Below the pieces are notes generated by a model that saw only the letters and a list, made by a program, of their open reading frames with translations, was not told where the DNA came from and did no database searches. A stretch of 32,213 bases of DNA from Azoarcus sp. (GTDB lineage Bacteria; Pseudomonadota; Gammaproteobacteria; Burkholderiales; Rhodocyclaceae). Shown here one piece after another: positions 25,335-26,909 of this stretch. The stretch lies in NCBI GenBank assembly GCA_031282905.1, contig JAITCV010000149.1, positions 1-32,213 of the forward strand. Direction: 5' to 3'. Both the position numbers and the translations under genes were made by a program. Numbering within the stretch: position 1 is the stretch's first letter; the number at the start of each line of letters is the position of its first letter.

Positions 25335-25633
25335 CCCGAAGCCTGACGAGTATAGCGGCGAAAACGTTTCCTGGCAAAGCGGAGAGGATTCCACGCCGGG
25401 CTTGCATCACGCCGCCCACGAAATCCTGTCGCGGCGCGGCGGGATTGTCTGCTTGCCTACATTTTGTGGTCAACACTACACAAAAAAAGATATAACCCTA
25501 AATAAATATAACGTAAGTATTTGATTTATATGAAAATAATAGCTGGCGTGGACTTTGCTGGATTCTCTTTCGCTATATTTCAAGGAAGCATGCATGGATG
25601 CCGGAACGATGAAAACGACCGCGCCATCGGCTG
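25335..25633. other. Intergenic DNA with an AT-rich tract
   Basis: About 300 bases without a supported gene. The segment around 25480-25545 is strongly AT-rich and could hold promoters. A 34-codon frame from the ATG at 25530 reads MKIIAGVDFAG but matches nothing I know. Confidence 0.4.
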
Positions 25634-25924
25634 ATTCTCGACCTTGCCCTTGTCCCCGGCGAACTCGTCGCCCTGCTTGGCATCAACGCGGGGAAGAGCA
25701 CCCTGCTCGGATTGCTGCGGCCGGAGAGCGGGGAAATTCGCCTGGACGGCCAGCGGCTGGCCGACTGTTCGCACCGCCCGGCATCTGGCCTATGTTCCGC
25801 AAGCCCACGCTGCGTTTTGCCGCAACCGCGTGTCATCCTGTTCGACCAAGGTATCATCCTCGCCGACGACCCCGGCCAGATACTCACCACCGCCCTGCTC
25901 GAACGCATGCGGCGCACCATGTAA
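25634..25924 (+). pseudogene. Decayed ABC transporter ATP-binding subunit (FepC/BtuD-like)
   Basis: One frame reads ILDLALVPGELVALLG, a damaged Walker A (INAGKST with the GPNG part shortened), then LRPESGEIRLDGQRLAD. A different frame holds AYVPQAHAAF, the normal Q-loop region. The original frame then resumes at VILFDQGIILADDPGQILT, which is the C-terminal part of iron-siderophore or cobalamin ABC ATPases. The ABC signature and Walker B are missing and total length is about a third of normal. It is a deletion and frameshift remnant with no partner genes beside it. Confidence 0.75.
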
Positions 25925-25965
25925 ATGGTATAGAATTTCTCGATTTCCCTTCAAGGAGCCATACG

Positions 25966-26562
25966 ATGTGCCAGACTGAAACCCTCTCCGTTGTCATCAC
26001 CCCGGTCCCGAACTCAAACCCGATCCCGACCGTCAGCCACAAATGCGCCTGCGGCGGACATGGCGGCTTCGCCGGGCGCAAGGTGCCGCCCGGCCACGAT
26101 CTGGAATACCCATCCGTCGACTTTCCGCCATCGGGCTTCATCGCCGAAGTCGGCGAAACCGCCTTGCGCGCCTTGGTGCTGCGTCACCACACCCTGCTGC
26201 GCCAGCATGCGGAAATCGGCCATCTTTTTGCCAGGGACGATAAGGTGTTTGCCGAACGTGTGGCAAAAATCGCCGATTACATCGTCGAAGCCTGCGGTGG
26301 CCCGAGCGCCTATTCCGATGCCGAAGGCAGCGATGTGTGCATACGCACTCGCCATTTCCCGTTCGAGATCGACGAACGCGCGCGAGAAATATGGCTGGAA
26401 AAACTGTTCGTGGCCCTGGGCGAAACGCAATTCTCGCTGCTCGCCAAACAAACCTATTGGACATGGCTGGAAGCCATGTCGATACGCATGATCAATCGGC
26501 GCCACGCCAAGGCCCAGCCGACGCGGATCGGCTTCGACGAAGCGGTCGGGCGTTTTGGCTGA
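25966..26562 (+). CDS. Truncated-hemoglobin-like protein with an N-terminal extension
   Basis: The 198-residue protein starts at an ATG preceded by AAGGAG. Residues 58-175 look like a group II-type truncated hemoglobin: GETALRALVLRH, then GGPSAY at 111-116 and TRHFPFEIDERAREIWL, where His130 would be the proximal heme ligand. The family binds O2, NO or related ligands. The extension (1-57) carries CACGGHGG at 27-34, a possible metal-binding stretch. The B-helix Tyr/Phe positions read RHHTLL, so ligand chemistry may differ. Family membership is inferred from motifs; I have no alignment score. Confidence 0.65.
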   Translation: MCQTETLSVVITPVPNSNPIPTVSHKCACGGHGGFAGRKVPPGHDLEYPSVDFPPSGFIAEVGETALRALVLRHHTLLRQHAEIGHLFARDDKVFAERVAKIADYIVEACGGPSAYSDAEGSDVCIRTRHFPFEIDERAREIWLEKLFVALGETQFSLLAKQTYWTWLEAMSIRMINRRHAKAQPTRIGFDEAVGRFG

Positions 26563-26597
26563 CGCGGCCACAGCCGCAGCGGTCATGGAAAACGACC

Positions 26598-26909
26598 ATG
26601 GAAAGTCATATGCGCAAACATGCCGAAATACTTGCCGATTGGGCCCCCGATTTGTCTCTCAAGCTTGGACGGCCGGTCGAGGTCATCCGGGGAAAAGGGC
26701 TATCGGCCTACGATTTCCCGCCCAGTCAAAGGGTAAGAATCAATTTCGTCGATGGCTCCGTTGCCGAGTTCAACTATGCCTTTGCCTGTATCCGGGAAAA
26801 GGAATCCCAAGTCGCGGTTTTTACCGAGCATTGCGGTTACCTGGAATTCTGGCTCGAGCCGGAAATGGAAATCGTCGAGATCAGGGAGAACCACTACCGC
26901 CACGAGTAG
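26598..26909 (+). CDS. Small unrecognised protein next to the globin gene
   Basis: The 103-residue product has a helical N-terminus (HAEILADWAPDLSLKLGRPV). A strand-rich middle follows with RVRINFVDGSVAEFNYAF and AVFTEHCGYLEFWLEPEMEIVEI. It ends in a short charged tail. No family is recognised. An ATG at 26610 is an alternative start and has the better upstream GGAAAG. It follows the globin gene by 35 bases on the same strand, so the two may be co-transcribed. Confidence 0.6.
   Translation: MESHMRKHAEILADWAPDLSLKLGRPVEVIRGKGLSAYDFPPSQRVRINFVDGSVAEFNYAFACIREKESQVAVFTEHCGYLEFWLEPEMEIVEIRENHYRHE

Follow-up and report, generated by a model that had tools for sequence, protein, structure and literature searches.

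We find that a globin gene in a 32,213-nucleotide contig of Azoarcus sp. (JAITCV010000149.1; this whole stretch is the window below) encodes a truncated hemoglobin akin to Hell's Gate globin IV (HGbIV), a member of the HGbIV-like clade with an added N-terminal cysteine tail, and that relatives of this protein recurrently lie among nitrogen-fixation and metal-uptake genes. Because its relatives adjoin genes of these two kinds, the protein probably helps to run the oxygen-sensitive, metal-hungry nitrogenase. The nif and metal-uptake context of the relatives is well supported; the chemistry of the globin and its tail is inferred.

The gene and its globin core

The gene runs from an ATG at 25966 to a stop codon at 26560-26562, and the features of the gene and its heme region are as follows.

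25966..26562, + strand: HGbIV-like 2/2 globin gene, 198 amino acids plus stop (translation, PF01152, 4nk1, Foldseek)
25953..25958, + strand: ribosome-binding site AAGGAG, 7 bases 5' of the ATG (read from the sequence)
26185..26190, + strand: codons of the distal His pair His74-His75, which align with HGbIV His70/His71
26353..26355, + strand: codon of His130 (in RTRHFPF), presumed proximal heme ligand, invariant in the 13-relative alignment

In the relatives inspected, an ATG-TGY start is likewise directly preceded by a purine-rich ribosome site. An in-frame TTG at 25555 would extend the protein to 335 residues; we reject this start because the upstream stretch overlaps, in another frame, an ATPase gene remnant (described below), and because relatives start with Met-Cys behind their ribosome sites. 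An open reading frame on the opposite strand (26014-26586) is without any Pfam match and was set aside. Just 3' of the globin gene lies a 103-residue reading frame (26598-26906, + strand) that matches nothing in Pfam and has no counterpart among the fetched loci.

The original prediction, made from the DNA letters, was of a truncated-hemoglobin variant with a Cys/His-rich N-terminal extension before the globin core. Exact translation and a profile search bear out this layout: PF01152, the bacterial-like globin family, matches residues 63-176 (E 2e-11) at 44.6 bits, above its curated cut-off of 21, and no NCBIfam family model matches the globin. The best solved relative is HGbIV (4nk1/4nk2), found with an E of 7e-28 from the single sequence and 2e-53 from a 13-sequence profile. 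The AlphaFold model (pTM 0.74) is confident in the globin core and of low confidence in the tail, and Foldseek ranks HGbIV chains first to third with group II truncated globins next. The prediction of a truncated-globin variant was right.

Foldseek and the alignment show the traits of group II truncated hemoglobins: the 2/2 fold, the proximal R-x-R-H and a conserved Trp (a Trp at position 143 is present in every alignment row). The group II Tyr at B10 is absent; His75 stands there, in place of the Tyr seen in six ordinary group II globins; HGbIV shares this His. The distal-pocket stretch RHHTLL (residues 73-78), which had been singled out in this protein, is a hallmark of the clade and not an oddity, since its His pair aligns with that of HGbIV, both His are kept in 25 of the 29 HGbIV-like clade members having that region, and all six ordinary group II globins compared have Phe-Tyr there; we therefore no longer treat it as unique to the window protein. 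The HGbIV pocket has been described as having His(B9), His(B10) and Ser(E11); HGbIV Ser97 aligns with Ile101 of the window protein. On the proximal side, His130 is invariant in ordinary group II globins as well, and its role as heme ligand is presumed from family knowledge. In a tree of globin domains the HGbIV-like clade separates from ordinary group II globins with split support of 100/100, and the window protein has the traits of the former: it clusters with HGbIV, carries the His74-His75 pair and is long (198 residues).

Genomic neighbourhoods of relatives

We compared the open reading frames around the relatives all-against-all and found two recurring settings, nif and transporter. In L092 the globin gene lies between nifV/nifW/nifZ/PpiC and a NifA-type GAF/sigma-54 activator, the former group being followed outward by NifU and a NifS-like aminotransferase; homologues of these neighbours occur in L002, L003 and L094, and the L094 contig carries nifD, nifK, nifE, nifN, nifX and a NifX-associated gene. 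Molybdenum genes join the picture in L091 (nifE, modA, modB, ModE, Mop and NifQ) and L093 (Mop and NifQ near the globin). Physical linkage to nif genes therefore covers L002, L003 and L091-L094; the window copy lies outside any nif cluster. A scan for sigma-54/NifA promoters, for which a -24/-12 element and an upstream activator site would be expected, returned one perfect site, in L092 at -391, and a candidate upstream of the window gene scoring 9/11 at -422, a score with a background of about 0.1 per 500 bases; upstream of most members scanned there was none.

In the second setting (L001, L004, L006 and L086-L090) the globin neighbours transporter genes: Peripla_BP_2, FecCD, an ABC ATPase, TonB, MotA/ExbB, TonB receptors, SBP_bac_6 and DHOR. 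A common TonB receptor/SBP_bac_6/DHOR/Peripla_BP_2/FecCD/ABC ATPase locus is seen in L086 (1336-16074), L088 and L090, with a ModE-like protein (HTH_1 plus TOBE) at its end in L086; this locus may encode a TonB-dependent system for taking up a metal, either molybdenum or iron. An LLM-class oxidoreductase is common to L004, L005, L088, L090 and L065.

Three further observations concern these neighbourhoods. On Paraburkholderia nif plasmids, globin-like genes that are only distantly related (L065:4893-5522 and L066:3890-4522) lie between nifQ and DUF2325; the presumed proximal His is lost and C110 is kept, and the protein is perhaps a heme-free descendant. In genome G026 an ordinary group II truncated globin (L023; G026:C1:1316665-1316946) lies about 3 kb from nifK (G026:C1:1320017), so that a second globin type occurs near nif genes in the family. 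Finally, a protein of about 134-178 residues (L093:8621-9097, + strand) is encoded repeatedly in the vicinity of the globin gene, in loci of either the molybdenum/nif or the transporter kind; its homologues in L006, L007, L088, L090 and L091 share a conserved AYAE-L-AWRLRDGRWLI...MPR, and it has no Pfam, NCBIfam or plasmid match.

Distribution with nitrogenase genes

Sixteen genomes carry an intact CxC globin, and in 13 of them a canonical nifK or nifH scores over the curated cut-off (G000, G003, G006, G007, G254, G504, G554, G556, G592, G1318, G1321, G1322 and G1323). As to the exceptions, G004 is 78% complete and has a nifH-like match under the cut-off, and the globin adjoins nifZ/PpiC-type genes in G1319 and a NifS-like gene in G1320. 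In a set of 200 genomes from the family, nifK is present in each of the six long-type carriers compared with 83 of the 194 others (p = 0.007, shared ancestry ignored). Within the genus, nifH is found in 5/6 genomes that have the globin gene, whether intact or as a relic, compared with 3/16 others (p = 0.011, or 0.039 for intact copies alone, shared ancestry being ignored in both), and three nif-positive genomes of the genus are without the globin gene. G747, whose globins are without the tail and core cysteines, has no nifK. The window genome itself carries nifH and nifK on contig C181. A broken globin copy, with an internal deletion and frame changes, lies at L009:4938-5303 (the same as L016; G010:C91), in a genome that retains nifH.

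The cysteine tail

The tail and the cysteines that accompany it are encoded as follows.

25966..26094, + strand: added N-terminal tail, residues 1-43 (alignment; predicted disordered; dN/dS)
25969..25971, + strand: Cys2 codon, invariant; the N-terminal residue if Met is removed
26038..26052, + strand: codons of the H-x-C-x-C motif, His25-Lys-Cys27-Ala-Cys29 (13-relative alignment)
26293..26295, + strand: Cys110 codon (in EACGG); Cys110 occurs wherever CxC does
26338..26340, + strand: Cys125 codon; Cys125 occurs wherever Met-Cys does

The extension had been put at 57 residues. It is real and, rather than being absent from all homologues, is common to 13 aligned relatives, but residues ~44-57 belong to a segment that HGbIV-type globins have before helix A, which leaves an added tail of about 43 residues. 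Residues 1-32 have a pLDDT below 50. In four pairs of relatives, dN/dS within the extension is 0.13, 0.20, 0.38 and 0.12, so that it is translated and constrained. The tail is homologous across relatives and under purifying selection.

All 13 relatives have M1-C2-Q3 and C27-x-C29 in the tail and C110 and C125 in the core, and most also have His25. The start is M-C-D in L090 and MCQ, with CGC, in L091. The linker from C2 to CxC varies in length and composition, and the L094 tail contains a long His-rich run. That M1, C2, Q3, C27 and C29 are fixed while the segment around them varies argues that the conservation of the cysteines is beyond chance. Of CACGGHGG (residues 27-34), highlighted by the original prediction, the C-x-C is conserved, usually as H-x-C-x-C and together with C2, but GGHGG is not, and we discarded the latter as a metal motif on the 13-relative alignment. 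Since C2, CxC and usually the His are retained in a variable, probably disordered tail, a metal or redox site there is plausible.

What might such a site do? One answer is that the protein handles metal, with a high-affinity HypB-like site (the Cys2 thiol and amine plus CxC) buffering or delivering metal imported by the linked transporters and the heme gating it by O2/NO. The Met-Cys start, the CxC (mostly H-x-C-x-C), the His-rich run of L094 and the modAB, ModE, Mop, NifQ and FecBCDE/TonB genes linked to relatives are consistent with this, and HypB does bind Ni via Cys2, Cys5, Cys7 and its N-terminal amine (PMC7055735). We nevertheless think it unlikely: the CxxCGC spacing of HypB is absent from the window globin, where C2 and CxC stand 24 residues apart compared with 3-5 in HypB, and in HGbIV and L086 CxC comes without an in-register Met-Cys start.

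A second answer draws on the co-occurrence of the cysteines. CxC and C110 are found together in 18/18 tail-bearing rows and are both missing from six short-tailed members, and Met-Cys accompanies C125 in 16/16 rows, as might be expected of a thiol redox switch in which disulfides join cysteines of the tail to Cys110/Cys125 close to the heme and thereby let the globin report or resist oxidation. When followed on the tree, however, the coupling is not significant, because it stems from just one to three independent changes; C125 is missing in HGbIV and the cytosol is reducing, all of which makes a switch clearly unlikely. On the same tree, L078-L083 form one short-tailed sub-clade without any of the five cysteines, and L007, which adjoins it, keeps one tail Cys and C125.

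The ATPase remnant

Upstream of the globin gene, 44 bases away, the window retains a broken transporter gene.

25637..25921, + strand: remnant of a FecE-type ABC transporter ATPase gene, frameshifted and shortened (tblastn)

It matches the ATPase of L001 (36.6% over 101 columns, E 8.6e-11, tblastn) and also those of L004, L006, L086 and L090. As this is a remnant of the ATPase of the transporter that adjoins the globin in relatives, the window appears to have once held a transporter-globin locus that has decayed, leaving only the globin intact.

The remnant and the transporter genes next to the globin in many relatives, with SBP_bac_6 and DHOR within these loci, also suggest an accessory of iron, heme or metallophore uptake: the globin would work for the TonB/FecBCDE transporter, perhaps by handling heme or iron in the cytosol, and its link to nif would reflect no more than a high demand for metal. 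The loci suit iron as well as molybdenum uptake. Yet copies in nif operons (L092, flanked by nif genes; L094; L091) have no adjoining transporter, and the window globin persists despite its broken one, so we hold this account to be very doubtful. That the gene is a relic being lost in the termite-gut lineage, with no current role in the window genome, is highly improbable: the adjoining ATPase and the G010 (= L009) globin copy are broken and the window is without nif neighbours, but the reading frame, ribosome site, five conserved cysteines and heme-region residues are intact, and nifH and nifK are present in the genome.

Proposed role

Our preferred reading, to which we give about even chances, is that diazotrophs use this globin to handle O2/NO in the surroundings of nitrogenase and that its tail binds metal or is redox-active. 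An HGbIV-like globin would then form part of a nitrogen-fixation and metal-supply genetic module of Betaproteobacteria-type diazotrophs. His130 would be the heme ligand and His74/His75 would face the heme distally, and the protein would bind O2 and/or NO, keeping these low, or oxidising NO, during assembly of nitrogenase and its metal clusters. With the initiator Met removed, Cys2 and Cys27/Cys29 (and His25) would make up a flexible metal- or redox-active tail, which may act with Cys110/Cys125 in tuning or reporting the heme state. In the window genome the linked transporter would have decayed, with the globin persisting alone.

In a bolder version the protein would couple O2/NO sensing to nitrogenase metal delivery. 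Cys2 and the H-x-C-x-C tail would carry Mo, Fe, Ni or Cu and exchange either the metal or electrons with Cys110/Cys125, close to the heme, and the nif/molybdenum module would thus include a metal or redox donor that is gated by heme. We consider this speculative and decidedly improbable.

Returning to the O2/NO-handling globin, the common neighbourhood of HGbIV relatives and their cysteine tail suggest for these proteins a function in oxygen- and metal-sensitive nitrogen fixation that can be put to the test; this proposed function extends to termite-gut symbiont genomes, and the five cysteines are named targets for mutation.

Comparison with known systems

With ordinary group II truncated hemoglobins (HbO, Bacillus subtilis and Agrobacterium types) the protein shares the 2/2 fold, the R-x-R-H with HisF8 and the Trp; those proteins differ in having the distal Phe-Tyr and in lacking the tail and all five cysteines. 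The nickel site of HypB resembles it, as a comparison of working principle only, in the Met-Cys start, the clustered Cys and (in the L094 relative) the His-rich run; HypB itself is a GTPase whose first seven residues contain CxxCGC, and the window protein is a globin.

That globin genes occur inside nif clusters was known before, as illustrated by the nif-cluster cyanoglobin of Nostoc, which differs in being a group I globin, and by nrf2. The latter, an ordinary-size globin gene reported from an acid-mine nif cluster, has 414 bases (PMC3912193), too short for the tail. What appears new for the known globin class is the conserved cysteine tail together with the nif/metal context, although an earlier description is possible beyond openly licensed papers.

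The closest system is HGbIV (PDB 4nk1/4nk2, Methylacidiphilum infernorum), for which the crystal structure is known, no assigned role was found in the openly licensed literature, and the host genome encodes nifHDKENB (PMC6688271). The idea of a globin variant with an added site holds as regards the variant, but the HH pair and a long CxC N-terminus are already present in HGbIV. The original prediction did not include the conserved core cysteines C110 and C125, the nif/molybdenum/TonB surroundings of relatives or the decayed transporter gene. The two share the clade, the His pair (at 70-71 in HGbIV), the C110 equivalent and a long N-terminus, with CxC within ACCCK at residues 19-23. They differ in that HGbIV is without C125, that an MCQ start in the same register did not align (HGbIV being compared from residue 6 on), and that the 2/2 cores are about 39% identical over the fold-aligned part.
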